NCBI RefSeq assembly: GCF_021568285.1
Contig: NZ_JAKGTQ010000001.1
Coordinates: 744,001-808,000, forward strand
DNA from: Rheinheimera sp. UJ63
GTDB taxonomy: Bacteria > Pseudomonadota > Gammaproteobacteria > Enterobacterales > Alteromonadaceae
Length of the DNA: 64,000 nucleotides
Reading direction: 5' to 3'
The position numbers were made by a program, and so were the translations under genes. Below are positions 5,434 to 20,814 of this stretch, in pieces. Numbering within the stretch: position 1 is the first letter of the stretch; the number at the start of each line of letters is the position of its first letter. The notes under the pieces are model-generated. The model had not been told where the DNA came from. It ran no database searches and worked only from the letters and a program-made list of their open reading frames with translations.

Positions 5434-8400
5434 TTGACGAGCTCTGCCTCTGCAATGATTCAAAATGGTAGCGGAATCGGTTTAGCCACCCTTGCCGCCA
5501 TATCACTGCTGTATTTGTTGGTGCTATATTGCGTTGGCCTGTTCGGCCGGCGTATTACCGCACAGCATCCGCTTGCGCCCTGGGTGTTTAGTTTAGCCTT
5601 ATCCATATATTGCACATCCTGGGCTTTTTATGGCGTTACCGCTCAAGCCGTGGTGAATGGCTGGTGGCTGCCCCCCACCTATATTGGCTCTTTTATCCTG
5701 TTTTGGTTTGGCTTTAAATTGCTCGCCCGCGTCGCTGTTGCCTGCCGACGCTATCGTATCACCTCTATTGCTGACTTTATTGCCACCCGCTTTGGCCATT
5801 CGCGGCTGTTAGCGGTGATGATCACGTTAATTTTATTGATGACGGTGATCCCCTATATCACGCTGCAACTGCACGCCGTTGCGACCAGTATTAACACCCT
5901 AGTGAAAGTGGAAACCGGAGAGCATTGGTATACCGATACCGGGCTTTATGTGTGTTTATGGATGGCAGTGTTTGCGCTGCTGTTTGCCGGTAAAAGCGCT
6001 CGCGCCCACCAGCCCAACCCCGGTTTAATGACCGCCATTGCCTTTGAATCGCTAGTTAAACTGTTTGCGTTGTTAGCCATTGCGATATTTGTAGCATGGG
6101 GCATCTTTGACGGCGTAGGTAACATCTTTGAATTAGCCGCCGACAGTAACGCTGTACAGCAAATTCAACGTCAGCGCTTGCCTACTTACACCTATTGGAT
6201 CCATGTATTACTGGGTTTTGCGGCTACCCTTTGTTTGCCTTGGTTATTCCATGTCAGCTTTGTCGAAAACCAAAAGTTGAGCCATTTGCGCAACGCGCGC
6301 TGGGTTTTTCCGCTGTACTTATTATTGATGGGCGCCTTTAGCCTACCCTTAGGTTTAGCCGGTATTATGTTACTGGGTGAAAACGCCAATCTCGACTTAG
6401 TGATTCTACAACTGCCGCTCGCGGCTAATCGCACCGATATTGCCTTGCTGGCATATATTGGCGGTTTCTCGGCGGCCACCAGTATGGTTGTGATCGCCAC
6501 CGTTGTACTAGGGATTTTGATCACCAACGAATTGTTAGTGCCGTTATTGTTTCGTCGAAACAACCTAGCCAATGATCAACAAAAACTGATTAAAGTGGCG
6601 ACTGTAAGACGTTTAGCCATGATCGTGGTACTCACGCTCGGTTTTATTTATTACCGTTTTATTGGCACTGGCACCGGTTTAGCGCAGCTCGGCTTAATGG
6701 CATTTGCTTTAGTAGCACAGTTAGCACCTTCGCTAATTATGGGGCTGTTCTCACGTCAAATAAATCGGCGAGGTGCTATAACAGGTTTGGGCAGTGGCGC
6801 CTTAATTTGGGCTTATGTATTGCTGTTCCCTGAACTCGTGCGGGCCGGCATTATCAGCAGTCAAATACCTTTAACTGGGCCTTTTGGCGTAAGTTGGTTA
6901 GCCCCACAACATTTATTTGGCTGGCAAGGTGATAGTATTACCCTGGGGGTATTACTCAGTTTAAGCGTTAACTGTTTAATGACCCTCCTGGTGAGCCAAT
7001 TAACCAATACCGGTATTAGTGAATGGCTACAAAGCGGCCGCTTTTTGCGCAGTAGCCGTGAAGCCCCAGCTAGACCATTACAACAACTGACCATTCAAGA
7101 GTGTTACTTATTAGTTCGCCGTTTCGCAGGGGAACGCGAAGCCCAGCGCCTGTTACAACGCAACACCAAAGACAACCAAAGCGAATTGCAGCGCTTAGCG
7201 CCGATTAATGTGATTCAAGCCACTGAGCGCAGCCTGGCGGCCGTATTAGGCGGCGCCTCGATGCGTTTAATTATGGATGCCAGTGGTCGACATGGCCGTT
7301 TGCCGATGGAAACCGTGGAACGCTTTGTCGACGAAGCCAGCCAAGTTTTTCGCTTTAATCAGAATTTATTGCTCTCCACTATTGATAACATCAGCCAAGG
7401 TATCGCCGTAGTCGATGCCGATCAACGTGTTATTGCTTGGAATCAGCGCTATATTGAGATGTTTGATTACCCACCGGCGATGGTCGAAGTAGGTCGCCCC
7501 GTTGCTGAGTTAATCCGCTTTAATATGCAACGCGGTTTAATTGATAGCGCCGATATTGAAAGCGAAGTGGCTAAACGTATTGGCTTTTTACGCCAAGGTA
7601 GCCAATATCGGGTGCAGCGCGAACAGCAAGATGGCCGTGTATTAGAAATACAAGGTAACCCCTTACCGGGCGGCGGTTTTGTGACCACCTATACCGACAT
7701 CAGTTCTTTTATTGCCGTGCAGCAACAATTAGAACAGAGTAATCAGCTACTAGAACAACGTGTAGTCGAGCGCACCAGTGCCTTGCAACAGTTAAACGCC
7801 CAGCTACAACACACTCAGCAACAGCTTGAAATAAGCACCCAAGCCAAAACCCGTTTTTTTGCTGCCGCTGGGCACGATTTAATGCAGCCTTTTAATGCGG
7901 CAGCCTTGTTTGCCAGCTTATTGCGCCAAAAAGTGACGGAACCCGAATTAAAACAATTAAGTGAAAACCTCAGCCATTCCCTCAATTCCGCCGAAGAATT
8001 ACTGACGGCTATCCTCGACTTAACCAAACTCGATTCAGGGGTGATTAAAGCCCGTCATCAACCGGTGAGTGTGCAAATATTGTTAGAAGACATTGCCCGT
8101 GATGCCACCATTTTAGCCGAGAAAAAGGGCTTACAATTTAAGCTGCATAGCACAAAATTAGTAGTGAACACTGATCGCAAACTGTTAAAACGTGTCCTAC
8201 AGAATTTACTGGCGAACGCCATCCGTTATACCCCAGCAGGAAAAATTGTTTTAGGTGTGAAACGCCGCGGCGAGCAACTACAAATTTGTGTATTGGATAC
8301 CGGTGTTGGTATTGCGCTGGCTGATCAGCAGCGTATTTTTGAAGAGTTTCAACAAGGTAGCCAACCCGATCAAAAAGGCTTAGGGTTAGGCTTAGCGATT

Positions 8401-8931: not shown

Positions 8932-9534
8932 TTAAGTAAGGGCACTTCGCCGAGTCACTAGCAATACTAGCATTGAAGCAAACAGCCACAGTGTTGTAGG
9001 CTCAGGTACCGCAACCCGACACGCTCCCTGACCTACGCTTACACAAGCCTCACCAGCGGTAAGTTGTAAACTTTCACCAACTCGCCCAACCACATTAAAA
9101 CCCAATAATGGATCTGCCACATCAAAACTGAGCAGAGTTACTCCATCGGTTAACGCAGTAAAGTTAACCGAAAAAAGCTTTAATGGCCCCACTTGAAAAG
9201 CGGCTAACTCATCATCGGTTAAAAATGACACCATAAGACTTTTAATACTGAAGGGTTCAAAGTTAAAATCATAAAACGCTTCACTCGGATCAAATGTAAA
9301 GTTAGCCAATTCAAATATTAGCTCATCGGCTCGTAAAATATTGCTATCAAACAGTAAATTGATATCCCAGCCAGAAACAATATTGGGAGCAAACAAGTTC
9401 GCCCAAACGTCGATGGATAAGGTGTCCCCCACTGCGACATGCTGCTGCACCGGTGTAATGTAGATCAGTGCGGCTTTTGCTGGCATAGTCGTAAGCGCAA
9501 GTAATAACAACAAGCTCGCTAAAAATCTTTTCAT
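8932..9534 (-). CDS. Cohesin-like domain protein with PEP-CTERM sorting signal
   Basis: A 200-residue exported protein. The signal peptide is MKRFLASLLLLLALTTMPAKA. The mature part reads like a cohesin/carbohydrate-binding jelly roll: HVAVGDTLSIDVWANL, VSGWDINLLFDSNIL, then PLKLFSVNFTAL and GVTLLSFDV. The C-terminus is a PEP-CTERM tail: VPEPTT, a hydrophobic segment, then RRSALT. Such tails are cut by an exosortase (EpsH family) and direct proteins to the surface or matrix; no exosortase is in this window. Of two close ATGs I chose 9534 because AAGGA is then about 8 bases away. It follows the dockerin protein gene in the same operon and converges on the kinase gene with only 12 bases between. 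Confidence 0.72.
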   Translation of the reverse strand: MKRFLASLLLLLALTTMPAKAALIYITPVQQHVAVGDTLSIDVWANLFAPNIVSGWDINLLFDSNILRADELIFELANFTFDPSEAFYDFNFEPFSIKSLMVSFLTDDELAAFQVGPLKLFSVNFTALTDGVTLLSFDVADPLLGFNVVGRVGESLQLTAGEACVSVGQGACRVAVPEPTTLWLFASMLVLLVTRRSALT

Positions 9535-9566
9535 AATCATGTTCCTTTTTTATGTTGTCAATTACG

Positions 9567-11396
9567 TTAAGGCGCTATTGCACAGCGAGGCAAACTGCAT
9601 TTCAAGGCGCACAAACGAGTATCATTTACCGTGATAACACCATCATTGTTCTGATCTCTAACATCGCCAGCTAACACAAATTGGCCAATAGCCGCACGCA
9701 CTAAACCAACGTCAACAGAGTCAGTAGCTTGATTGCCATTGACATCACATGCGCTGACTAATGGGCTTATCGTTAGATCGAACAATATGGGCGAGCCTCG
9801 TTGCTCATTGCCATTCAGGCGAGCTTGCACTTGCATAAAACGCCCGCTGTTAGATAACGCGGCACCTTTTGTGGCGACTTGATAAGGCAGAGCCGTTAAA
9901 CCTGCAACACTGTCAGCACTGCGATAGGCAACTTGCACGGAAGTCTCTTCGGGTAAAAACTCATTCCAGTTAATACTGCCCCAGGCCATACCTGCACTCC
10001 CGCCGTCATATACGACAGTCCATGTACCTGTTGGTGATGTAACATTTCGCGCTACTAACCCCGTTGCATCGCTGTAGGTGTAAGGCATATTACCCACCGC
10101 AAAAACGCCAAGCGGTGCGCCAGTTGTACCACTGTATTTTTGTACTCTGCCGGCACTGGTAAACCCAATTTGCAGCACATCATTATTGGCATCCACTTGA
10201 ATACCGACCGAAAAGCTACCTCCCGCCTGCAGAGGTGCTTGCCACTGCAATGTGCCATCTGCTGCCACTTTTCTAATCGAAGTTGAACCAGCGATAATAT
10301 TCCCGCCACCATCCACCACAATACCTAAGGTACTTACTGCCATATTTGGAATAGCGCTATGCGTATTGGTTGTTGGATCGAATTGCCGATTTCCACTTCC
10401 CAAGTACACCTTGCCATTACCCAGCGCTATACCGTAATTACTCATCCCACCGAAAGAGGACACCGTATAAGGCCCAGCGTTGCTTTGCGTATTGGTGATT
10501 TTACCTAAGGTGCTACCTAAGGATGCGCTCCATAAGGTACCACTGGCATCGATTAAACAACCATAAGGTGTCCATGAACCTGCATTGGGCTGCCCATCAG
10601 TTGGCGTTGTTGACACGGGCCCAAAAATGGTGGAACCATCGGCAGCACTGACTTTGTAATAAGCGCGATCATTATATAAACCTACCCACAAATTACCGTC
10701 AGTCCCGATACACATTGCACGACCTAATGTACCCGTGGGTCGCAGTGGTGCAGCGTTACCATCCGGTACACGTTTTGCCCAAGCAATACGCTCATCCTGA
10801 ATTTCATTTTCATCAATAATGCCATTGCCGTTCAAATCCGCCATAGGTAGCATTTCGGAATCATCAATAATCCCGTCATTATTGGTATCTACTGACGTTT
10901 CCATCCTGCCATTACCATTGCGGTCAATAAAACCTTCTGCCAAAATTTTCAGGACGACACCAGCACTCATCGTTCCTTGACTAAAATGGCGATTTAAAAC
11001 ATAGGCATTTCCGTTAATATCAACTGATGTGCGTGAGGGTGCAGCACCAGAGTAAGCCGATCCTAAATGTCCAAAATGTCCAGCCTGCCCTGCCGGTCCA
11101 AACCAAGTACGGTAACGCGCCACTTCAACGTTTAACACCGTATCAAATTTCGAGACGGTGTCTTCACCCGCGTTAGCAATCCAAGCAACTGGAAAAGTTG
11201 TTCCTACCGTATTTAGCTGCAACTGGTCACCATTAGGTGCATCAAAGTTAACGCCATCTAAAGTCCCCGATGCAAAATCTGCATCCAAGGTATAGATTTT
11301 TGGCGCAGCCAAAACTGCTGAACTAAAACTGCAAGCAATAACGAGCAATAGGCTTGGATTTAATAATTGATTACCACGATTACGTTGAGTTTTCAT
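9567..11396 (-). CDS. Secreted beta-propeller protein with calcium-loop repeats and C-terminal dockerin
   Basis: A 609-residue exported protein with an N-terminal signal (hydrophobic LLLVIACSFSSAVLA). The body has repeats of the virginiamycin B lyase/NHL propeller kind (NLWVGLYND, GTLWSASLG, NNDVLQIGF). A calcium-loop-rich insert at about 160-200 carries DRNGNGR, DTNNDGIID and DLNGNGIIDENE. The last about 60 residues match a type I dockerin: two duplicated loops, DVNGNQATDSVD and DQNNDGVITVND, each followed by a helix. Dockerins bind cohesins, and a cohesin-like protein is encoded directly downstream. The ATG follows GGGAGG. Function of the propeller is unknown; it may bind a polysaccharide or protein. 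Confidence 0.72.
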   Translation of the reverse strand: MKTQRNRGNQLLNPSLLLVIACSFSSAVLAAPKIYTLDADFASGTLDGVNFDAPNGDQLQLNTVGTTFPVAWIANAGEDTVSKFDTVLNVEVARYRTWFGPAGQAGHFGHLGSAYSGAAPSRTSVDINGNAYVLNRHFSQGTMSAGVVLKILAEGFIDRNGNGRMETSVDTNNDGIIDDSEMLPMADLNGNGIIDENEIQDERIAWAKRVPDGNAAPLRPTGTLGRAMCIGTDGNLWVGLYNDRAYYKVSAADGSTIFGPVSTTPTDGQPNAGSWTPYGCLIDASGTLWSASLGSTLGKITNTQSNAGPYTVSSFGGMSNYGIALGNGKVYLGSGNRQFDPTTNTHSAIPNMAVSTLGIVVDGGGNIIAGSTSIRKVAADGTLQWQAPLQAGGSFSVGIQVDANNDVLQIGFTSAGRVQKYSGTTGAPLGVFAVGNMPYTYSDATGLVARNVTSPTGTWTVVYDGGSAGMAWGSINWNEFLPEETSVQVAYRSADSVAGLTALPYQVATKGAALSNSGRFMQVQARLNGNEQRGSPILFDLTISPLVSACDVNGNQATDSVDVGLVRAAIGQFVLAGDVRDQNNDGVITVNDTRLCALKCSLPRCAIAP

Positions 11397-12477: not shown

Positions 12478-12831
12478 TCACTCTCCCGCTTTATGGACAT
12501 TGACCACTAAAGTTGCAACCACATTATTCTGACTATCAAGCACGCTAAGATGGTGCGCACCAACATAGCTTGTAATAAGCTGATACTGCAGGCTGCCATC
12601 GTTACCAGCGGTAACAACTTCATTGCTTCGCTTGTTGTTAACGACAGTTTCTAAGGTATAACTGGCTCCTGGGCTAAACAGAGTTCCATTCAGAACTACA
12701 GTATCACCAGCAATAGCCTGCGATGGCCCCGACAACGACAACGCGGTATCAGCCAAGCTTGTTGATGAACACAGTAGTAAGGTTACAAATATCGACGATT
12801 TTAAAAATGTGTTAGAAGGGATAATTTCCAT
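12478..12831 (-). CDS. Small exported Ig-like protein, function unknown
   Basis: A 117-residue protein starting the leftward exported-protein operon. Signal peptide at about 1-27 (hydrophobic core IFVTLLLCSSTSLA). The mature part (LSLSGPSQAIAGDTVVLNGTLFSPGASY) looks like one beta-sandwich domain of bacterial Ig-like style. A good ribosome binding site (AAGGAGAAG) precedes the ATG. I do not recognise a named family. Operon membership with a TolB-like, a dockerin and a cohesin/PEP-CTERM protein suggests a part in the same surface assembly. Confidence 0.65.
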   Translation of the reverse strand: MEIIPSNTFLKSSIFVTLLLCSSTSLADTALSLSGPSQAIAGDTVVLNGTLFSPGASYTLETVVNNKRSNEVVTAGNDGSLQYQLITSYVGAHHLSVLDSQNNVVATLVVNVHKAGE

Positions 12832-13329
12832 TGCTAGCTTCTCCTTTATAAATTAGGTAGAAACCCGCATCACGGCTTAATATGCAAGGTACAACAAAAT
12901 TAGTTATTGCATAGCTTAAGCCAACTTTAGTTAGGCTTGTTTTAATTGATTAATTTAAAATGAGCGTGATGATACTGCTGTGCAAGTGTAAAGAATGCTG
13001 ACACTAATACAGTCAAAACTTAATTAATTAAACGTCAAAGCTGAATCCAAACGTTATGTGCACATAAGACATAGCAAGTGTATTCTTACATTCCCGACGT
13101 AACTTTTTTGTAAACTTAGCGCGGTTATTTCTATTTCAGTCTTTGCCGCTATAAAATTTTTGCTACTCATTAAACGTCACCTCCCTAACAAACCAGCCAA
13201 TCGACTTTTTATAATTAATCAGAATTAAAAACTTCGTTTTTTATAAAAAATTATTCTGTTGATTTGCTTTACGACTTTCAAGCCATAACCTATCTTAAAA
13301 ATCACTTTTAATTAACATTAAAATGACAA
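12832..13329. other. 498-bp AT-rich divergent intergenic region
   Basis: Separates the leftward exported-protein operon from the rightward bacteriocin cluster. It is clearly more AT-rich than its surroundings, with repeated TTAATTAA-like stretches. It holds one small leftward ORF with a strong ribosome binding site (13054-13170). No sigma-54 (TGGC-N8-TTGC) element, as reported for some PEP-CTERM genes, was seen before 12831. Confidence 0.5.
13054..13170 (-). CDS. Possible 38-residue small protein, unknown
   Basis: A short ORF starting MSSKNFIAAKTEIEI and ending HLLCLMCT. What makes it stand out is a near-perfect Shine-Dalgarno, AGGGAGGTGA, with ideal spacing (9 bases from GGAGG to the ATG at 13170). 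I recognise no family. It has no double-glycine leader; the C-terminus has two cysteines. It could be a small regulator, a leader peptide for the operon that begins at 12831, or a chance ORF. Confidence 0.35.
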   Translation of the reverse strand: MSSKNFIAAKTEIEITALSLQKSYVGNVRIHLLCLMCT

Positions 13330-14580
13330 ATGAGCCAGCAGCCTTTATTTAGACAAGCCGCACTGAAACAGCAAGCGCAACGCTTAGAGGGAGAGGTGGT
13401 GATCGCCCAACCGCTGAGTAGTACTGTGCTGACAGTCAGTTTATTACTGCTGGTTAGCGGTATTGTCACTTTTTTAGCTCAGGCTGACTTTAATCGTAAA
13501 GCCACCGTCAATGGCTATTTGCAGCCAGATATGGGTATCGCCAAGGTGCATGCCGCACGTGCAGGAGTGATCAGTGAGCTTTATGTTGCAGATGGCGCTA
13601 TGGTCAGCCAAGGTCAACCGCTACTGTTAGTTAATGTACCGGACTATTTAGCCGAAGGCAGTAGCTTAGTCGGTAGCTTAAGCTTGAGCTTACAACAACA
13701 GCAACAATTACTCACCGCTCGGCGCGAACAGCTAGTACTGCACTATCAACAGCAGCAACAAGAATTGCAAAGCCGCTTGGGTTATCAGCAAGCATTATTA
13801 ACCGAGCAGCAACACCAAACCGCCCTGGTTGCCAATCGGCTGCAACTGCAACAACAACGCTTAGATAAGCTGAGTAGCTTGCAAGCAAAAGGCGCCATTA
13901 GCGAGCTGGATTGGCAAGTACAACAAGAAAACTTGCTGTTATTAAAACAACAAGTCACTGAACAGCAGTTAACGCGGCAAAGTCAGCTCGCCGCACTGTC
14001 ACAACTTGAGGGTCAGTTGCAGCGTTTGCCTACGGAGCAACAGCAGCAACTCGCTTTATTAGAGGCAGAATTTTCGCGACTGCAGCAGCAACAATTAGAG
14101 CTACAAGCGCGTAATCAATTGCTGATCACTGCCCCAGTCAGCGGCCGAGTCACCAATTTAGTCGCCGAGCTAGGTAAATATACCCACAGTCATTTACCAC
14201 TTTTAACTATCTTACCGGAGCAAGCACAGCTCCAAGCTATTTTGCTGGTGCCCACCCGAGCTTTTGGGTTTGTTAGCCCAGGCCAGCGCACTCGCTTACG
14301 CTTTGACGCCTTTCCTTATCAGCGTTTTGGTTTATATGAGGGCGAAGTGTTAACAACCGGTGAGGCGATTTTGTTACCTAATGAAGTGGAAATGCCGATT
14401 GCTATTCAAGAGCCCGTCTACCGCGTTGCGGTAGCACTGGACTCGCAAGAGATCCGCGCTTACGGCAGCAGCGTCCCGCTGCAATCGGGCATGCTGCTAA
14501 GCGCAGATATCGTGCTTGAGCAACGCAGCTTATTAAGCTGGTTGCTAGAGCCGATTTTCAGCCTGAAAGGGCGTCTTTAA
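13330..14580 (+). CDS. HlyD-family adaptor of a bacteriocin exporter
   Basis: A 416-residue periplasmic adaptor (membrane fusion protein). One membrane segment at about 31-50, a biotinyl/lipoyl half-domain (ARAGVISELYVADGAMVSQGQPLLLV), a long Gln/Leu-rich coiled coil at about 110-250, the second lipoyl half (LLITAPVSGRVTNLVAELGKY) and a C-terminal beta-barrel. It matches adaptors that work with C39 peptidase-ABC exporters to carry double-glycine peptides across both membranes. The exporter ATPase is at 15744-17837. Starts at ATG 13330 with no obvious ribosome binding site. First gene of the cluster, 32 bases before the first precursor peptide. Confidence 0.85.
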   Translation: MSQQPLFRQAALKQQAQRLEGEVVIAQPLSSTVLTVSLLLLVSGIVTFLAQADFNRKATVNGYLQPDMGIAKVHAARAGVISELYVADGAMVSQGQPLLLVNVPDYLAEGSSLVGSLSLSLQQQQQLLTARREQLVLHYQQQQQELQSRLGYQQALLTEQQHQTALVANRLQLQQQRLDKLSSLQAKGAISELDWQVQQENLLLLKQQVTEQQLTRQSQLAALSQLEGQLQRLPTEQQQQLALLEAEFSRLQQQQLELQARNQLLITAPVSGRVTNLVAELGKYTHSHLPLLTILPEQAQLQAILLVPTRAFGFVSPGQRTRLRFDAFPYQRFGLYEGEVLTTGEAILLPNEVEMPIAIQEPVYRVAVALDSQEIRAYGSSVPLQSGMLLSADIVLEQRSLLSWLLEPIFSLKGRL

Positions 14581-14612
14581 CCTTAACTGTAATCGTCTCT
14601 AGGAGAGATATT

Positions 14613-14786
14613 ATGCAAGAACTTACATTTGAGCAAGTTGAAGAAGTGAGTGGTGGTTTTGTCGCATTATACTGGATTGCTAAGGGTAGCTACATAGCTG
14701 GTAAAGCAGCTGTGAGTTATGCAACTCGGCATTATGTTACAACCGCAGTGGGTATTGGTGTAGCTGTTGAATTAGCGAGCGATTGA
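14613..14786 (+). CDS. Double-glycine leader bacteriocin precursor, peptide 1 (57 aa)
   Basis: A short gene with strong AGGAGAG 5 bases before the ATG. The leader MQELTFEQVEEVSGG has the classical spacing of hydrophobic residues (L4, F6, V9, V12) before GG (14-15), the cut site for C39 peptidases. The predicted 42-residue core starts FVALYWIAKGSYIAG and ends VAVELASD. It is hydrophobic, rich in small residues, without cysteines, and has GxxxG-like spacings (S26/G30, A29/A33, G47/A51). It overlaps no other gene and ends 2 bases before the next precursor's ATG. Likely a class II bacteriocin/microcin component; activity is an inference. Confidence 0.8.
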   Translation: MQELTFEQVEEVSGGFVALYWIAKGSYIAGKAAVSYATRHYVTTAVGIGVAVELASD

Positions 14787-14788
14787 TT

Positions 14789-14992
14789 ATGAATAATTTA
14801 TCGAAGAGTAGTGCCTCAACCAAAATGATAGAACTTCATGAAAATGAACTTACTTCAGTTTCTGGAGGCCATCCTGCTGTAATCGTTGTTGTTACAGCAT
14901 ACGGTGGTTATGAATTTGGTCGAGAAGTAGGAAAAGGTATTAAGAAAGCTTGGAGTTGGGTTAAAGATAAGCTTTCTGAAGAGGAACCATAG
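14789..14992 (+). CDS. Double-glycine leader bacteriocin precursor, peptide 2 (67 aa)
   Basis: The leader ends IELHENELTSVSGG (GG at 26-27) and fits the double-glycine consensus. The predicted 40-residue core begins HPAVIVVVTAYGG and ends in an amphipathic helix, KKAWSWVKDKLSEEEP. Glycines 40, 44 and 48 form two consecutive GxxxG motifs, the helix-helix contact pattern of two-peptide (class IIb) bacteriocins. The ATG at 14789 follows the stop of peptide 1 by 2 bases, so the two are probably co-translated. A longer TTG start at 14783 is possible but would overlap that stop. Confidence 0.8.
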   Translation: MNNLSKSSASTKMIELHENELTSVSGGHPAVIVVVTAYGGYEFGREVGKGIKKAWSWVKDKLSEEEP

Positions 14993-15006
14993 TTAATTAT
15001 TGATTA

Positions 15007-15038
15007 GGGCATCAGCGAAGTCTGTTTCACTGATGCCC
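15007..15038 (+). terminator. Intra-operon stem-loop between bacteriocin and immunity genes
   Basis: GGGCATCAG pairs perfectly with CTGATGCCC, and inside it GAA pairs with TTC. No T-run follows; the ribosome binding site of the next gene comes directly after. This suits partial termination or 3'-end protection that makes the precursor peptides more abundant than the downstream proteins. Confidence 0.6.
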
Positions 15039-15052
15039 CGTTGAGGTGAAAT

Positions 15053-15370
15053 ATGGATGAACCAAATTATTTGATTATATTCTTTGGCATTATTGTTTTT
15101 TACTTCTTTAAGTTGAAAAAATTAAAGAAGTATATGTCTGCCCCTAATGTTCTTTTATATTCAACATTAAAGTTGATAGTGCTGGTTGTTATGACTATGG
15201 CTTGTATGTTATTTGCTCACAATATCATCGATGCAAATAACAAAATAGTCTTAGGTTTTGGCGGGGTTGCATTCATAATAACACTAGTTGTAATTACGAT
15301 TTATGAAGACAAAAAAATTGGTGTTATCGATGACATAATTCAAAAAGCAAAAGACGATTTTTATAAATAA
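15053..15370 (+). CDS. Small membrane protein, candidate immunity protein
   Basis: 105 residues, about three membrane segments (LIIFFGIIVFYFF near the start, a second at about 32-55, a third at about 66-85) and a charged C-terminal tail (DDIIQKAKDDFYK). GAGGTG sits at good distance before the ATG. No family recognised. Small multi-pass proteins directly behind class II bacteriocin genes are usually the immunity proteins, and that is my inference here. The sequence is visibly AT-rich compared with the flanking core genes, a sign of acquisition. Confidence 0.6.
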   Translation: MDEPNYLIIFFGIIVFYFFKLKKLKKYMSAPNVLLYSTLKLIVLVVMTMACMLFAHNIIDANNKIVLGFGGVAFIITLVVITIYEDKKIGVIDDIIQKAKDDFYK

Positions 15371-15422
15371 CCTTAATAAAATACTTATTTTTTCTAACCA
15401 TCATAGTCAAAATTATAAAAGC

Positions 15423-15451
15423 TCATGATCTAGTATTCATAATACTTATGA
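15423..15451. promoter_or_regulatory. Nested inverted repeat before the exporter genes
   Basis: Outer TCAT (15423-15426)/ATGA (15448-15451) and inner AGTATT (15432-15437)/AATACT (15441-15446). It lies about 90 bp before the next small gene, in an AT-rich 167-base gap, and could be an operator for a second promoter driving the exporter. Confidence 0.3.
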
Positions 15452-15537
15452 TTACTAACTTACTTACACAACAACTACTGCTAGCTAAAATAGCTATACG
15501 CTGAATTTAGCCCTGTTTAAAGTTCGGGAGTAAAAAT

Positions 15538-15747
15538 ATGAAGCCTTTCTTACCTATGATCGCTTTAGTTGTTTTTTTCCTCTTATTCGGCATATTTAAT
15601 ATATTTGATCGCTGGCAAACCGGTGAGAGCATTAGAAGAATCGATTACGCTATACTCATGGTCATGCCAATTGGTATTGCCTACTGTTGCTTGATTTTTC
15701 TTATCATAAAGCTGTCCCTTCCCGCTAAATCTCAGCCTAAACAATGA
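15538..15747 (+). CDS. Small two-span membrane protein of the bacteriocin cluster
   Basis: 69 residues with two hydrophobic segments (PMIALVVFFLLFGIFNIF and AILMVMPIGIAYCCLIFLIIKL) joined by a short charged loop. A GGGAG site precedes the ATG. Its stop overlaps the start of the exporter gene by 4 bases (ATGA), so the two are translationally coupled. It may be a second immunity protein or an accessory exporter subunit; no family recognised. Confidence 0.6.
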   Translation: MKPFLPMIALVVFFLLFGIFNIFDRWQTGESIRRIDYAILMVMPIGIAYCCLIFLIIKLSLPAKSQPKQ

Positions 15748-17837
15748 TCTACCAATCCGAAGCCGCTGAATGCGGGCTCGCCTGTATGGCGATGATTGCT
15801 AATCACCATGGCCATCAGCTGGATCTCACCACGCTGCGTAACCGCTATAGTGTGTCATTTAAAGGCGCGAATTTACAGCAACTGATGGTGCTGGCTAATC
15901 AGTTGGGGCTGGCAGGTCGCGCACTTAAATTGGAACTAGAAGACCTCGCTAAGTTAAAAACGCCCTGCATTTTGCATTGGGAAATGAACCACTTTGTGGT
16001 GCTGCGTAAAGTGCATCGAAACGGTATTAGTATTTTCGATCCGGCTATGGGGGAACGGCGATTGTCATTGAAAGAAGTTGATAAAGCCTTCACCGGTATT
16101 GCGCTGGAGCTCACGCCCACCACAGAATTTAGCCAGGTTGATGAACGGGTAAAACTCAAACTAACCGCCTTTTGGCAAAAAGCTGCTGGCTTATGGCCTT
16201 CATTATCTAGACTTTTTATCTTGTCATTATTGTTACAGCTATTTTTACTGGCATCCCCTTACTACACCCAGCTAGTGGTGGATGAAGTATTGATTAGCCA
16301 TGATAAGCCATTGCTCATTGTGCTCGCTTTGGGTTTTGGCTTGTTGGTGTTAATTCAAGTCGTTACCCAAACGCTGCGTGGCTGGGTGGTGCTGCACTTA
16401 GGCTCGGTGTTAAGCGTACAAATGGCCACCAATTTAATGCGTCATCTACTGCACTTACCGCTGAGCTATTTTGATAAACGCCATATGGGCGATGTGGTTT
16501 CGCGTTTTGGCTCATTACATGCGGTGCGAGAGTTATTTACCAACAGCTTAGTAGAAGGTGTTATCGACGGCATTATGGCCTTAGCTGTGCTAATTATGAT
16601 GTATTTATACAGCCCCAAACTGGCATTGGTAGTGGTGATTGCTGTTATGCTTTATGCCGCTATCCGCTTTCTACTGTATCGTCCACTGCATCAACTTACA
16701 GAAACCAGCATTATGGCCAGTGCCAAAGAACAAACAAACTTTATGGAATCGGTACGCGGCATGCAAAGCATCAAATTGTTTGGCCAACAATCGCAGCGGC
16801 TGAATGTCTGGCAAAACCGCTATGCCGATGCGATTAATCAAAATTATCGTTTAGGGAAATGGCAACTTGGCTGGCAAAGCACCAATCACCTGTTATTTGG
16901 CGTTGAAAATGTGCTTGTGGTCTATCTTGCCGCCTTAACCGTGATGAGCGGCGACATGACCGTTGGGATGCTATTTGCTTTTATCGCGTATAAAAGTCAG
17001 TTTACCAACCGCACGGCAGCGCTGATTGATAAATTGATTGAAATAAAAATGACGCGTTTACATCTCGACCGTTTAGCCGATATTGCCTTAACCGAACAAG
17101 AACGAGAGGGCCTGACTAACCCTTACCGAACCATCAGCGGCAATCTAACGCTTACCGATCTGCAGTTTCGCTATGCCAGTAATGAACCCTGGCTGTTTAA
17201 CCAGTTAAACTTAACCGTTGAGGCGGGTGCCAATATTGCTATTATTGGCCCTTCTGGCACGGGCAAAACCACGTTAATGAAATTGATGCTGGGGTTATTA
17301 ACGGCCGAGAGCGGTAAAGTTTTGGTCGATGGCATTGAAATAACACAGTTAGGCTTGCGCCATTACCGCAGTCAAATCGCCGCGGTGATGCAAGACGATC
17401 AACTGTTATCCGGTAGTTTGGCAGAAAATATCAGCTTTTTTGACCCAGAACTCAACATGCAGCAGGTGCATGAGGCGGCCCAATTGGCTGGGATCCATCA
17501 CGATATCAGTGCCATGCCGATGGGCTATAACAGTTTGGTGGGAGATATGGGCAGTTCCCTGTCGGGTGGCCAAAAACAACGTGTTTTGCTGGCCAGAGCA
17601 CTGTATCGTAAACCGAAGATTTTGTTTATGGATGAGGCGACCAGCCATTTAGACGTACAATTAGAACACTATGTCAATCAGGCTATTAAGCAACTTAATA
17701 TGACGCGTATTATTATCGCGCATCGGCCAGAGACCATATTGAATGCCGCACAGATCTATTTATTACAAAACGGTCAGTTACAAGAAATCACCCAGCAATA
17801 CAAAGCACAGTATCAGTTGGCGGCTGAGCCTCACTAA
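15744..17837 (+). CDS. C39 peptidase-containing ABC exporter (bacteriocin processing and export)
   Basis: A 697-residue PCAT. The N-terminal C39 peptidase has Q4, catalytic C10 (AAECGLACMAMI), H83 (HWEMNHFVVL) and D99 (IFDPA). An ABC transmembrane domain with six spans covers about 150-430. The ATPase has Walker A GPSGTGKTT (502-510), signature LSGGQ (606-610), Walker B ILFMDEATS and H-loop IIAHR. It cuts double-glycine leaders and exports the cores with the HlyD adaptor at 13330. All catalytic residues appear intact. The protein begins only three residues before Q4, slightly shorter than most relatives. Its gene converges on the response regulator gene with 15 bases between. Confidence 0.93.
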   Translation: MIYQSEAAECGLACMAMIANHHGHQLDLTTLRNRYSVSFKGANLQQLMVLANQLGLAGRALKLELEDLAKLKTPCILHWEMNHFVVLRKVHRNGISIFDPAMGERRLSLKEVDKAFTGIALELTPTTEFSQVDERVKLKLTAFWQKAAGLWPSLSRLFILSLLLQLFLLASPYYTQLVVDEVLISHDKPLLIVLALGFGLLVLIQVVTQTLRGWVVLHLGSVLSVQMATNLMRHLLHLPLSYFDKRHMGDVVSRFGSLHAVRELFTNSLVEGVIDGIMALAVLIMMYLYSPKLALVVVIAVMLYAAIRFLLYRPLHQLTETSIMASAKEQTNFMESVRGMQSIKLFGQQSQRLNVWQNRYADAINQNYRLGKWQLGWQSTNHLLFGVENVLVVYLAALTVMSGDMTVGMLFAFIAYKSQFTNRTAALIDKLIEIKMTRLHLDRLADIALTEQEREGLTNPYRTISGNLTLTDLQFRYASNEPWLFNQLNLTVEAGANIAIIGPSGTGKTTLMKLMLGLLTAESGKVLVDGIEITQLGLRHYRSQIAAVMQDDQLLSGSLAENISFFDPELNMQQVHEAAQLAGIHHDISAMPMGYNSLVGDMGSSLSGGQKQRVLLARALYRKPKILFMDEATSHLDVQLEHYVNQAIKQLNMTRIIIAHRPETILNAAQIYLLQNGQLQEITQQYKAQYQLAAEPH

Positions 17838-17852
17838 CAATACGCGAATGTA

Positions 17853-18503
17853 TTAATCATACTGTTCTGGCAGTTTCAACTTTTCAAATAAAATACCGGC
17901 TAAGGTGCGGTTATTAACGTTAAGCTTGCGCAAAATCGCTGACACATGCTGCTTGATCGTGGTTTCCTGCACATTCATTTCATAGGCAATTTGCTTATTT
18001 AACAAACCATCGGCAATCATTTTTAACACCCGAAACTGCTGTGGGGTGAGTTGTTCTAGCCGCTGCGCAAAGTCATGATCAATTAAAGCCCGGGCGTTTT
18101 TAACATCATCTGCCAATGCGGGTGGCAGCCAAGTATCGCCACTGGCGACGGCATCGATGGCCTCTGACAATAATTCTAGCGGTGCTGATTTTGGAATATA
18201 CGCGGCAGCACCTAGCGCCAGCGCTTGCTTAATAATAACCGGATCTTCTTCTGCCGACACCATGATCACCGGCACATCGGGATATTCTGTACGCAGTGCG
18301 GTAAGGCCCGTAAAACCGTCCGAGCCCGGCATTTTTAAGTCGAGGAAAATAAAGTGAGTATCAGGATGTTGACGGAGTAAGGGCCAAACTTGCTGCATGG
18401 TTTGTGCCTGCAACAACAAGGCATCTTTACCTAAAATCGCCGCGCAAGCTTGCGACAGTGCAACGCGGAACAAGGGGTGGTCATCAGCAATAATAGCAAT
18501 CAT
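17853..18503 (-). CDS. LuxR/NarL-family response regulator (CrbR/ErdR type)
   Basis: 216 residues. Receiver domain: acidic pocket ADDHP at 6-10, phospho-acceptor Asp in FIFLDLKMPG at about residue 55, and the Lys switch in AAYIPKSAP. The C-terminal LuxR-type HTH spans about 145-210 (LTPQQFRVLKMIADGLLNKQIAYEMNVQETTIKQHVSAILRKL, split here only for description). It has no neighbouring kinase on its own strand. The best partner in the window is the SSF hybrid kinase at 5434-8919, whose CrbS-type family works with this regulator type. Followed on the same strand by nothing; preceded by the TonB receptor gene. Confidence 0.88.
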   Translation of the reverse strand: MIAIIADDHPLFRVALSQACAAILGKDALLLQAQTMQQVWPLLRQHPDTHFIFLDLKMPGSDGFTGLTALRTEYPDVPVIMVSAEEDPVIIKQALALGAAAYIPKSAPLELLSEAIDAVASGDTWLPPALADDVKNARALIDHDFAQRLEQLTPQQFRVLKMIADGLLNKQIAYEMNVQETTIKQHVSAILRKLNVNNRTLAGILFEKLKLPEQYD

Positions 18504-18537
18504 AACAATACTTCAGGACAATTTTGCCCATAATGAA

Positions 18538-18555
18538 CCGGGGCTTTCGCCCCGG
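18538..18555 (-). terminator. Terminator-like hairpin after the TonB receptor gene
   Basis: A perfect 7-bp stem, CCGGGGC/GCCCCGG, around a four-base loop, 15 bases beyond the receptor stop codon. The following leftward bases are only modestly T-rich, so termination may be incomplete and the regulator may be co-transcribed. Confidence 0.55.
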
Positions 18556-18570
18556 CAAGGTTTTTCGAGA

Positions 18571-20814
18571 TTAGAAACGGTAACCGACTGACAAACTTAC
18601 CGTCCGTGGGTCAATGTAATAACCGGTAATGGTTTGCTCACCCGCTAACAACGCAAAATTGTAACCAGCAATACGCGCCTGCTTATCACCTAAGTTTTTG
18701 CCCTGTAGCGACACATCCCAGTAACCGTCTTTTGAGTACCAGTTTACACCTGCATTGATCAAGGTATAGCCGCCGTAATCGAGTACAGAGGGTACTTCAA
18801 AAATTTGCGTCGCGCCGCGATAAGCTAAGTTAGCATTAAACACTAAGCTACCAAAATCGGTTTCTACGGTGTAACGGCTCGCTAAGGTTGCCGTTAATTC
18901 CGGCGTATTAGCAAATCCCCAAACATTAGATACATCAACCACCGCTTGCGATACTGGATCAAAGAACTCTACTTTGTTAAACGACGCATCGATGTAACCG
19001 ACAATCGCGGTTATTTCCAAATCACGTGTCGCCGCGAACAAGGCTTCAACCTCAGCACCGTTAATATCTGCGCTGGCCGCATTTAATACTTGAGATGCAA
19101 CGTTATTACCTACCGCACGTTGCACGGTAACTTGCATATCTTCATAAGAAGAATGGAAAACCGCCGCATTCAAACGTAAACGCTGATTTAACCATTCGCT
19201 CTTAATACCCAACTCATAGGTATCAACCGTTTCTTCTTGGTACGGGTCGGTCGCGTTAGGGTTTACAATTTCAACCGCACGCATATCAAAACCACCTGAC
19301 TTAAAGCCGTCTGTGTAGCTCACGTAATACATTAAATCATTGCTGTACTGGTACTCTGCACCTACACGTGGTGAGAAATGGCTAAAACTTTCACTCCCGC
19401 TAAAATCTGTTTGCACTTGTAATAGGGTATTTGGCGCAGCAGGATCACGTGGCCCTTTGTAGCCTAGGTACAATCTGCGGTCTAAGGTGGCATCTTTGTC
19501 ATCTTTGGTATAACGACCACCCGCAGTTAACGATAACTTGTCAGTTAACTCGTAAGTACCTTGAGCGTAGGCAGCAATACTGTCGGTGTCTACGCAACCG
19601 CCGTTTTCAACAGTTACACCGGCACCGGCCACAATAACAGTACCGAAGGCCCCGCAAGCTTCACCGGTGTAATAGTATAAGCCCGACGCCATTTTAAACT
19701 TATCGCCACTAAATAATAACTGCAGCTCTTGAGAGGTTTGCTCATCTTCATAAAAAGCCGGTACATCTAATGACTGTAAAGGGGTAGAGTCAAAATCGAT
19801 ATTGGTATCGGTAACACCTTTACGTCTGGCGGTCACCGATTTCACCGTCCAGTTATCGTTAAGATCCCACGTTAAGGTTAACGATTGACCTTCCGTATCC
19901 ACTTTGTTGTCGGCTGGCATACTAGAATAAGAGTCGTATACGCTGTCAGTTAATGGCTGATTAGGAACCAATAAACTTTGCGTTAAACGATAGCCCCCTT
20001 TTGAATTTGATTTATCGACAGTTTTATCAGCACTGAAGCGCACGCTAAAATTGTCTGCGGCATTCCACTGCACACTCACACGGCCAGATTGCACATCTTT
20101 GTCATAGTTATCAGCACCGGTATTTAAATAAGTACCAAAACCATCGCGGTTAAAGCTAGCAATAGCACCACTGACAAATAAGTTATCCGTTAAACCTACT
20201 TGGCCCGATAATTTAAAATCTTGCTGATTATCAGTACCGATGGTGCCGCGCACAGCAAATGCCGTATCACCAGTTAACTCTCTGGTGACATACTTAACCG
20301 CACCACCGATAGTGTTACGACCGTACAAGGTGCCCTGCGGACCACGTAGTACTTCGATCCGCTCGACATCATAAACATCTAACGCTGCACCTTGCGGGCG
20401 CGCCATGTAAACGTCATCAATATAAATACCTACGCCAGGTTCAAAACCCCATAACGGATCTTGCTGACCAATACCACGAATATAAGCCGTTAAAGTACTG
20501 TTAGTACCGCGTGATACTTGCAAAGTGGTGTTCGGTGAATATTGCTGTACCGACGTAATATTATCGATACCACGCTGAGCTAATTCTTCTTCACCAATTG
20601 ACGTTACCGCCACGGGTACCGTTTGTAAGTTTTCTACTGTGCGTCGAGCAGTCACTTCAATCCGTTCTAATTTTACTTCATCATCATTGCTGTTGCTTTC
20701 TTGAGCGAAAGCAGGCGCCATTAAACAGCTGCTTACGGCTAATGCCAAGAGGCTGGGTTGAAAGAAGCGCGGGTAGATCGTTGAAGCTTGCTCAATCTTA
20801 TTATTCTTGGCCAT
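18571..20814 (-). CDS. TonB-dependent outer-membrane receptor
   Basis: 747 residues. Signal peptide at about 1-38 ending APAFAQ, TonB box-like IEVTARR, plug domain (PVAVTSIGEEELAQRGIDNITSV, VERIEVLRGPQGTLYGRNTIGG), then a beta-barrel ending in aromatic YRF. It imports an unidentified ligand with TonB/ExbBD energy. It is divergent from the GntP-type permease gene and next to the CrbR-type regulator, so the ligand may be a hydroxy acid, an oligomer of 3-hydroxybutyrate, or a compound carrying it; this is inference from context only. Confidence 0.9.
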   Translation of the reverse strand: MAKNNKIEQASTIYPRFFQPSLLALAVSSCLMAPAFAQESNSNDDEVKLERIEVTARRTVENLQTVPVAVTSIGEEELAQRGIDNITSVQQYSPNTTLQVSRGTNSTLTAYIRGIGQQDPLWGFEPGVGIYIDDVYMARPQGAALDVYDVERIEVLRGPQGTLYGRNTIGGAVKYVTRELTGDTAFAVRGTIGTDNQQDFKLSGQVGLTDNLFVSGAIASFNRDGFGTYLNTGADNYDKDVQSGRVSVQWNAADNFSVRFSADKTVDKSNSKGGYRLTQSLLVPNQPLTDSVYDSYSSMPADNKVDTEGQSLTLTWDLNDNWTVKSVTARRKGVTDTNIDFDSTPLQSLDVPAFYEDEQTSQELQLLFSGDKFKMASGLYYYTGEACGAFGTVIVAGAGVTVENGGCVDTDSIAAYAQGTYELTDKLSLTAGGRYTKDDKDATLDRRLYLGYKGPRDPAAPNTLLQVQTDFSGSESFSHFSPRVGAEYQYSNDLMYYVSYTDGFKSGGFDMRAVEIVNPNATDPYQEETVDTYELGIKSEWLNQRLRLNAAVFHSSYEDMQVTVQRAVGNNVASQVLNAASADINGAEVEALFAATRDLEITAIVGYIDASFNKVEFFDPVSQAVVDVSNVWGFANTPELTATLASRYTVETDFGSLVFNANLAYRGATQIFEVPSVLDYGGYTLINAGVNWYSKDGYWDVSLQGKNLGDKQARIAGYNFALLAGEQTITGYYIDPRTVSLSVGYRF

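Follow-up and report, generated by a model that had tools for sequence, protein, structure and literature searches.

Gram-positive bacteria make two-peptide (class IIb) bacteriocins such as lactococcin G and plantaricin JK, a class with GxxxG motifs in both cationic cores and with full activity only when the two peptides are combined. Exporters for double-glycine peptides carry signalling peptides as well as bacteriocins. Class II microcins have an N-terminal leader of 15–18 residues that ends in GG or GA, and for microcins, "class IIb" denotes siderophore-tailed peptides rather than the two-peptide systems so named among Gram-positive bacteriocins (PMC10233263). Validated class II microcins are few, numbering 10 with the majority from E. 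coli, and the microcin V exporter CvaB has its Cys-His-Asp triad at C32/H105/D121 (PMC9746304). Exchange of variable modules is described elsewhere. In CDI systems (CdiA-CT/CdiI), variable toxin-plus-immunity modules dock at a conserved junction, and orphan arrays hold extra modules that keep variable lengths of the upstream gene, with modules common to main and orphan positions (PMC3150448). In pneumococcal blp, conserved regulatory and export genes lie beside an exchangeable bacteriocin/immunity region, for which recombination at leader sequences has been proposed (PMC4860687).

The locus described here occupies positions 13330..17837 of a 64,000-nucleotide stretch of Rheinheimera sp. UJ63 (the window). 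As the original prediction of a compact rightward cluster had it, six genes with intact frames follow one another in the order HlyD, precursors A and B, two small membrane proteins, and exporter (Table 1). We read them, with a probability of roughly 0.7, as a bacteriocin cluster of class II (microcin V-like) that includes an exchangeable cassette, in a genome of the Rheinheimera/Alishewanella group. Spacing is tight: 32 nt separate hlyD from A, 2 nt separate A from B, and the last 4 nt of the 69-aa ORF lie within the exporter gene. Shine-Dalgarno-like motifs precede three of the four small genes, B being the exception. The response regulator next to the exporter is also present at L101, L111, L108, and L106. 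Rfam searches over 12800–18600 gave no match at E≤0.5, and sigma-70-like promoters and terminators were fewer than the shuffle means (8 vs 11.3 and 4 vs 5.3, respectively).

Table 1. Features of the cluster and its flank; transmembrane (TM) segments were counted by simple hydropathy.
Feature	Position	Strand	Basis
HlyD/CvaA-type membrane-fusion (adaptor) protein, 416 aa	13330..14580	+	Pfam HlyD_D23 2.2e-15, HlyD_3 2.5e-12
hlyD 3' end, conserved from codon ~366 onwards; putative 5' docking/recombination segment of the cassette	14425..14580	+	Four-fold-site identity; duplicated in relatives' cassette arrays
Short inverted repeat, ATCGTCTCTAGGAGAGAT, around Shine-Dalgarno of precursor A	14592..14609	+	Alignment of 22 cassettes, folding
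Precursor A, 57 aa; 42-aa core FVALYW... behind a 15-aa double-glycine leader	14613..14786	+	
Precursor B, 67 aa; 40-aa core containing GYEFGREVG behind a double-glycine leader	14789..14992	+	
105-aa protein, 3 TM, immunity candidate	15053..15370	+	Position, hydropathy
69-aa protein, 2 TM, second immunity or accessory candidate	15538..15747	+	Overlaps exporter start
C39 peptidase-containing ABC exporter (CvaB-like), 697 aa, triad C10/H83/D99	15744..17837	+	Pfam, PDB
Response regulator, convergent to cluster	17853-18503	opposite to exporter	

The export genes are those expected of a class II microcin, with a C39 exporter that has the Cys, His, and Asp residues, a membrane-fusion protein in the cluster, and TolC in the genome. 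The exporter matched Peptidase_C39 (1.8e-35), ABC_membrane (1.8e-41), and ABC_tran (5e-33) in Pfam, and it matched PDB entry 4ry2, "ABC-type bacteriocin transporter" (3.2e-102). Its triad residues are spaced by 73 and 16 positions, as in CvaB, which bears out the earlier claim of intact catalytic residues, and the ABC motifs are present. Copies in 13 other genomes of the genus are 71–83% identical. The hlyD gene is the sole close copy in its genome, where the TolC family gave four matches, two of them over the cut-off (TIGR01844). Other C39-like places in the same genome are L099 and L100.

Both precursors carry leaders of the class II microcin kind. The 15-aa leader of A is MQELTFEQVEEVSGG, and the core begins with F; the leader of B ends in the 15-aa motif MIELHENELTSVSGG, followed by H, and would be 27 aa long if translated from 14789, with TTG 14783 or ATG 14825 as possible alternative starts. 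Predicted average masses of the unmodified mature cores are 4391.0 Da (A) and 4461.0 Da (B), and their charges at pH 7 are +0.8 and -0.1, i.e. not strongly cationic. GxxxG motifs occur in B (GYEFG and GREVG); A has only the GxxxG-like SYIAG. The cores end in ...VAVELASD and ...KLSEEEP without a Gly/Ser-rich C-terminal tail, and we rejected assignment to the siderophore-tailed class IIb microcins. AlphaFold models of A and B were of low confidence (pLDDT 59 and 63) and were not used.

The original prediction's description of the cluster as undescribed was supported: neither precursor reached the cut-offs of any Pfam or NCBIfam family, and neither matched the plasmid collection at E≤1. The best NCBIfam E values were 0.0082 for A (over the leader) and 0.0049 for B (from the end of the leader into the beginning of the core), and a PDB search with B gave a single match, weak and unrelated. 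The leader pattern occurred once in the window's own genome with up to three mismatches allowed. Scored at a threshold of 15, leaders matched 123 times in 1.36 Mb of loci and never in the same loci reversed (window excluded from the reversed control), a control that is not an independent test, since these leaders were part of the seed set and the loci, selected through their exporter, overlap one another. A family alignment of core A (A4, which replaced A2, a poor alignment of mixed first-position cores) found five full-length matches, own included, across the order (394 genomes). The B core has relatives in L109, L070, L172, and L171. The model A1 matched 180 of 295 genomes at E≤1, but the matches listed were mostly leader-only and thus were not counted as B homologues; loci L171–L188, chosen through A1 matches and biased towards pairs, were left out of frequencies.

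Do A and B work together? The original prediction named the cluster two-peptide (class IIb). Two adjacent double-glycine precursors are indeed present, on one strand and 2 nt apart as in the Gram-positive class IIb layout, but for a microcin the term class IIb would mean a siderophore tail, which these cores lack, and core-A relatives are also found without a second peptide. In the genus, a second double-glycine ORF follows within 60 nt behind 4 of 24 first-position leaders. We rate joint action of A and B, as judged from sequence, as plausible, but such a peptide lies behind the core-A homologue in only 3 of 7 loci, so the pairing may not be obligate. The other four A-type cores (L090, L193, L248, L249) stand without one in the printed frames of their loci, the scope of this count. 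In L179 and L250, the A-type core is followed by a second double-glycine peptide and a small membrane protein, although the second peptide of L179 has no ATG, GTG, or TTG start before its leader. B-type cores lie behind another double-glycine peptide in L107, L109, L070, and L172, and the B homologue in L171 has no A-type ORF ahead of it.

The strongest rival, which we hold to be a serious possibility though the less probable one, is that A and B act independently, each as a one-peptide microcin with its own immunity membrane protein, and have only the exporter in common, as is the case in E. coli strains that make several microcins. Two small membrane genes would match two peptides, the lone A-type cores of L193, L248, L249, and L090 come with a Zn-ribbon-like 2-TM protein, and known clusters run several microcins through one exporter (PMC10233263). 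Against independence, however, the 2-nt gap between A and B leaves no space for an immunity gene, second peptides sit tightly behind a double-glycine peptide in six other loci (L107, L109, L070, L172, L179, L250), and one small membrane gene follows each such pair.

Both small membrane ORFs have the size and place expected of an adjacent immunity protein (51–216 aa, often TM). The 105-aa protein had no convincing homologue in 295 genomes of the family (best non-self E 5.4e-4), and the matches listed were mostly parts of larger ORFs. Homology to the 3-TM genes that follow the L175 and L205 pairs was not accepted, as hhalign gave E 0.0086 but a probability of 4.7%. The 69-aa protein has a 36% match immediately 3' of the exporter in L111/L042; elsewhere, among 196 genomes, its best non-self E was 2.5e-4.

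The cargo slot between adaptor and exporter is, on sequence comparison, hypervariable and modular, a point that the original prediction missed. First, an element at the hlyD 3' end occurs in 24 copies in 14 of 31 genomes of the genus, with the same precursor leader 80–122 nt downstream of each; a reversed-pattern control gave 0. Loss of the precursors in relatives that keep the exporter, named earlier as a possible refutation, was not seen among close exporter orthologues, as the same 14 genomes have both this leader and an exporter at least 71% identical (contig breaks in G016 and G022 hide gene order, and the G022 exporter match lacks residues 457–638); seven more have only a distant exporter (53–70%) and lack this leader. 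Second, across 13 loci the leader is conserved (amino-acid identity 0.87) and the core is not (0.17). Third, identity at four-fold sites of hlyD is 0.45 over codons 1–360 and 0.78 over codons 361–416. Against 12 relatives, it ranged from 0.25–0.38 before to 0.77–0.94 after a breakpoint that fell at codons 366–376 in 12 of 12 comparisons (permutations 0–21 of 2000). No such rise was found in eight paralogous HlyDs abutting their exporter (0.39–0.55 throughout). Ten cassette-type hlyD genes of other genera, which are also more diverged, lacked the plateau (0.29–0.35 throughout), and the docking signature is therefore claimed for this group alone. The inverted repeat is kept with few changes in 22 aligned cassettes and formed a hairpin in 4 of 4 folded sequences (whole-stretch z -0.9, for the window, to -2.2); that this Shine-Dalgarno hairpin is a CsrA-type site is speculation.

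Relatives also carry arrays. In 89 loci scanned, 11 hlyD 3' fragments precede extra cassettes at seven loci (L088, L090, L102, L105, L106, L109, L179). The cassette that fills the L105 expression site also sits in the downstream array in L106 (95.3% over 1501 bp), and L105 itself carries it twice (95.4% over 1402 bp). The window's genome has one leader, one element, and no hlyD fragment, and hence no array. No such cassette array was described for microcins in the literature searched.

We consider it unlikely that the hlyD-tail plateau is instead a selected regulatory DNA element, such as an internal promoter, with no role in recombination. Four-fold identity peaks at codons 373–396 (0.89–0.95) and is lower towards the stop (0.65–0.80) and in the leader (0.57), which is not what a simple exchange tract predicts, and the element stands ahead of every one of the 24 cassettes. 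A purely regulatory role, however, fits poorly with remnants that start at varying points (about codons 228–383), with the closer match of three remnants (one in L109 and two in L106, among 11 in all) to other genomes' hlyD than to their own, and with the sharing of ~1.4–1.5 kb between positions at 95%; nor was a sigma-70-like site, the promoter type covered, present in the window's hlyD tail. The two roles are compatible, and because leader four-fold identity is below that of the tail, selection on a DNA element within hlyD could contribute to the plateau.

A signalling (pheromone) or other non-killing role appears improbable. Double-glycine exporters do serve signalling peptides, and B weakly matched the peptide pheromone VP1 in NCBIfam (E 0.013, 15.7 bits vs a cut-off of 85), but the cluster contains no dedicated sensor, and toxin/immunity turnover fits the hypervariable cores, which vary in step with small membrane proteins or with proteins of the CPBP/Rce1 type (PF02517 in L103, L089, L113). 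Decay of the locus, for which the absence of known core homologues from the searched libraries would speak, is very improbable given six intact frames, the triad and ABC motifs, the Shine-Dalgarno-like motifs, and the conservation of the exporter in the genus.

In the class II microcin reading, the cluster would export an unmodified double-glycine-leader bacteriocin. The C39 domain would bind precursors A and B and cut after GG, and the exporter, HlyD, and a TolC encoded elsewhere would pass the 42- and 40-aa cores to the cell exterior. A and B would most likely attack the inner membrane of close relatives jointly, with the producer protected by the 105-aa protein and perhaps also by the 69-aa protein. 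The A-B-immunity block would be one allele of a cassette reaching from around hlyD codon 366 almost to the exporter. The common hlyD tail, ribosome-binding site, and leader would supply homology for recombination, so that a new core and immunity gene could dock behind the same export machine; the comparisons suggest that whole toxin-and-immunity modules replace one another in the slot that holds the peptide and protection genes. We give roughly even odds to the broader proposal of a microcin docking-site system, in which hlyD end and fixed leader form a standing junction that swaps one- or two-peptide modules between species, stores them in flanking arrays, and moves them in and out of the exporter slot, the window holding a two-peptide allele. 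No diffusible Gram-negative two-peptide bacteriocin of this kind was described in the literature searched.

A fixed leader, adaptor, and exporter with interchangeable cores offer a ready index for new microcins, as the hlyD-tail element plus leader pattern finds cassettes without core similarity. The locus also makes testable whether Gram-negative peptide bacteriocins include two-peptide action, and how diffusible weapons and immunity are renewed, as argued for CDI/Rhs and pneumococcal blp.

Among known systems, the cluster resembles microcin V (colicin V; CvaA/CvaB/CvaC/Cvi) and other class II(a) microcins in its 15-aa double-glycine leader, its C39 exporter with identically spaced triad residues beside an HlyD-type adaptor and with TolC elsewhere, and its adjacent small membrane immunity gene, here a candidate (PMC10233263, PMC9746304). 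It differs in having two tandem precursors whose cores showed no relationship within the limits of the searches, cargo between adaptor and exporter that changes as a module, a chromosomal-type contig, and a host outside Enterobacterales. With Gram-positive class IIb bacteriocins it shares the adjacent double-glycine precursor pair, ~40-aa cores, GxxxG in B (GxxxG-like in A), and small membrane immunity candidates; unlike them, it has HlyD/TolC Gram-negative export, weak cationic character, similarity below all cut-offs, and putative synergy. Like blp, it places conserved export genes next to exchangeable bacteriocin/immunity genes, but blp is Gram-positive and pheromone-regulated, and the portions of the blp account used here report no arrays behind adaptor-gene remnants (PMC4860687). 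By analogy, the nearest known counterpart of the swappable arrays is the orphan toxin/immunity modules of CDI, which share docking at a conserved junction, remnant-bearing arrays, and modules in both positions, the arrays here being those of relatives. The module here differs from that of CDI in being a secreted peptide that brings along a start, ribosome-binding site, and leader of its own, and the junction consists of the adaptor-gene 3' end and leader, whereas in CDI it lies inside the toxin gene.

In the window (G000:C1:744001-808000 of its own 3.84-Mb, 21-contig genome), hlyD, precursors A and B, two small transmembrane (TM) ORFs, and a C39-ABC exporter lie where the original prediction had placed an undescribed two-peptide bacteriocin (microcin) cluster, and on sequence grounds the bacteriocin interpretation appears right in kind. 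The cluster most likely follows the logic of class II microcins, as defined in the available portions of PMC9746304 and PMC10233263, with cleavage, export, killing, and immunity inferred from protein families. The C39 domain of the exporter would recognize and cleave the leader, the cores would be exported in one step via exporter-HlyD-TolC, the exported peptides would act on the membrane of relatives, and the 105-aa protein, perhaps also the 69-aa protein, would protect the producer. The exporter triad C10/H83/D99 was spaced as in CvaB, the exporter's closest PDB matches were bacteriocin transporters (4ry2 group), and TolC-family proteins were encoded in the same genome. Against NCBIfam, both precursors matched bacteriocin families below threshold: A the cerein 7B type, through the leader alone (E 0.0082), and B the lactococcin G-beta type (E 0.0049). 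Window 9567-11396 encodes a 609-aa secreted-looking protein with, as read by eye, a C-terminal dockerin-like repeat (DVNGNQATDSVDVG...DQNNDGVITVND).

Genes of the cluster, with window coordinates
Feature	Position	Strand	Pfam
hlyD, adaptor gene	13330-14580	+	well above cut-off
precursor A	14613-14786	+	no match above cut-off
precursor B	14789-14992	+	no match above cut-off
105-aa ORF, 3 TM	15053-15370	+	no match above cut-off
69-aa ORF, 2 TM	15538-15747	+	no match above cut-off
C39-ABC exporter	15744-17837	+	well above cut-off

Beyond the original prediction, we found that the cargo slot is modular, with a recombination-like junction in hlyD, which is more surprising than the cluster itself. 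First, the exporter was constant and its cargo variable. At E<=1e-100 the exporter had matches in 78 of 197 genomes, its own counted, including 20 of 30 other genomes of the genus; 13 of these 20 carried an orthologue at 71-83% identity, and the remaining seven more distant copies alone (53-70%). Orthologous loci kept the order hlyD - cargo - exporter, and across 13 of them (12 relatives and the window) amino-acid identity was 0.87 for the leader versus 0.17 for the core. Precursor matches in the first-fetched loci ran through the leader or scored low, and the 105-aa protein matched nothing there but itself at E<=1. Candidate immunity genes varied too, being small 2-3-TM proteins in some loci, Rce1/CPBP-type proteins (PF02517) in L103, L089, and L113, and in others ~100-aa 2-TM proteins with Zn-ribbon-like CxxC pairs and Pfam matches sub-threshold at best. 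The last kind, with two CxxC pairs, followed precursors or pairs in L107, L070, L172, L179, L193, L248, L249, L250, and L090, and is a candidate uncharacterized immunity family. L105:5467-6177, at the expected immunity-gene place within a microcin cassette, encodes a signal-peptidase S26-type protein (PF10502, 1.8e-19); in L101 the part of the cassette between precursors and exporter is mostly taken up by a 322-aa ORF (6058-7026) for which Pfam gave nothing at E<=0.01. In L115-L120, same-genus loci of a related exporter clade (66-70% identical), hlyD lies ~1.6-3.5 kb downstream of the exporter, with double-glycine peptides of other kinds. The exporter match of L092 (G022) lacks residues 457-638, which suggests a broken exporter or a misassembled contig.

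Second, four-fold synonymous identity among the 13 hlyD genes was 0.45 over codons 1-360 versus 0.78 over codons 361-416 (0.32 and 0.70 for the window gene against the rest), and the top 56-codon window within codons 1-360 reached 0.53. When the window gene was compared with each of the 12 others, a maximum chi-square scan of four-fold sites placed the breakpoint at codons 366-376 every time; between 0 and 21 of 2000 permutations were equally extreme. Eight paralogous HlyDs abutting their own exporters were flat (0.39-0.55). A second group, 10 cassette-type HlyDs of other genera, was flat as well (0.29-0.35), so the tail plateau is shown for the window's group only. Leader four-fold identity (0.57) fell below that of the tail, which counts against a simple recombination tract; a regulatory element within the tail may contribute to the plateau. 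The aligned cassettes of relatives keep a short inverted repeat (window 14592-14609) whose loop contains or adjoins the Shine-Dalgarno. A second hairpin 3' of the hlyD stop, whose two arms both differ between relatives (e.g. GGCTC...GAGCC, GCTCT...AGAGC), is absent from the window.

Third, tail and leader traveled together. Of the 31 genus genomes, the same 14 contained both a 23-nt hlyD-tail block, searched with one mismatch allowed (24 copies), and the leader pattern (25 copies); reversed-pattern controls gave 0 matches. When the two match tables were compared, every tail block had a leader 80-122 nt downstream, the single extra leader being in G020. Fourth, hlyD 3' remnants preceded extra cassettes in seven loci (11 fragments: L088, L090 x3, L102, L105 x2, L106 x2, L109, L179); for eight the same-locus hlyD was the best or tied-best match, and for three (L109, both of L106) another genome's hlyD. 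Exporter 5' remnants were present in L088, L092, L105, and L171 (3362-3511, matching the start of the L171 exporter at 87.6% over 153 nt). Finally, the expression-site cassette of L105 (4893-6378) recurred in L106, within the downstream array (9087-10569; 95.3% over 1501 bp), and in L105's own array (95.4% over 1402 bp). With one leader, one element, and no hlyD fragment found, the window's genome represents a one-cassette allele.

The two-peptide part of the prediction is unproven. Precursor B begins 2 nt after A, and tandem double-glycine layouts occur outside the genus (e.g. L070, L172, L175, L205, L250). Among the 24 first-position leaders of the genus (25 minus the second leader of a G020 pair), 22 were scanned, and in four another double-glycine ORF lay at most 60 nt downstream (the window, G010, and one each of G004 and G020); a fifth automatic match, in G003, was a membrane protein and was dropped. 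None was seen by eye in G016 and G022 (724 and 379 nt read), and past the 60-nt limit L106 had a weak one at 69 nt and L101 one at 189 nt. The core A family (FVALYW..G) was followed by a second peptide in three of seven loci (window, L179, L250), with none seen in L090, L193, L248, and L249. B-type cores share a G.GY..G-like motif (window, L109, L070, L172, L171), and that of L171 has no A-type ORF ahead. From this mixed pairing record, we estimate that A and B act jointly with a probability of about 0.55; independent action is a lesser but real possibility. In L182:5420-7731 (G090), ten double-glycine peptide ORFs lie in series beside a C39 exporter, five of them nearly identical (VVFVAYFAAAYVGTFAASAGFAYG...).

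The term class IIb carries clashing meanings for microcins and Gram-positive bacteriocins (PMC10233263, available portion). In the open-access literature, an exact-phrase search for two-peptide microcins returned nothing, none was found among the top matches listed (up to 20 of as many as 555), and no title or abstract start among those matches concerned microcin cassette arrays; neither absence is proof. Judged from the available portions of these papers, the nearest systems in logic to the hlyD-slot cassettes are CDI orphan modules (PMC3150448) and the pneumococcal blp region (PMC4860687). Whereas CDI orphans are described there as generally lacking translation signals (PMC3150448), the array cassettes here mostly retain start, RBS, and leader, and thus need not be silent.
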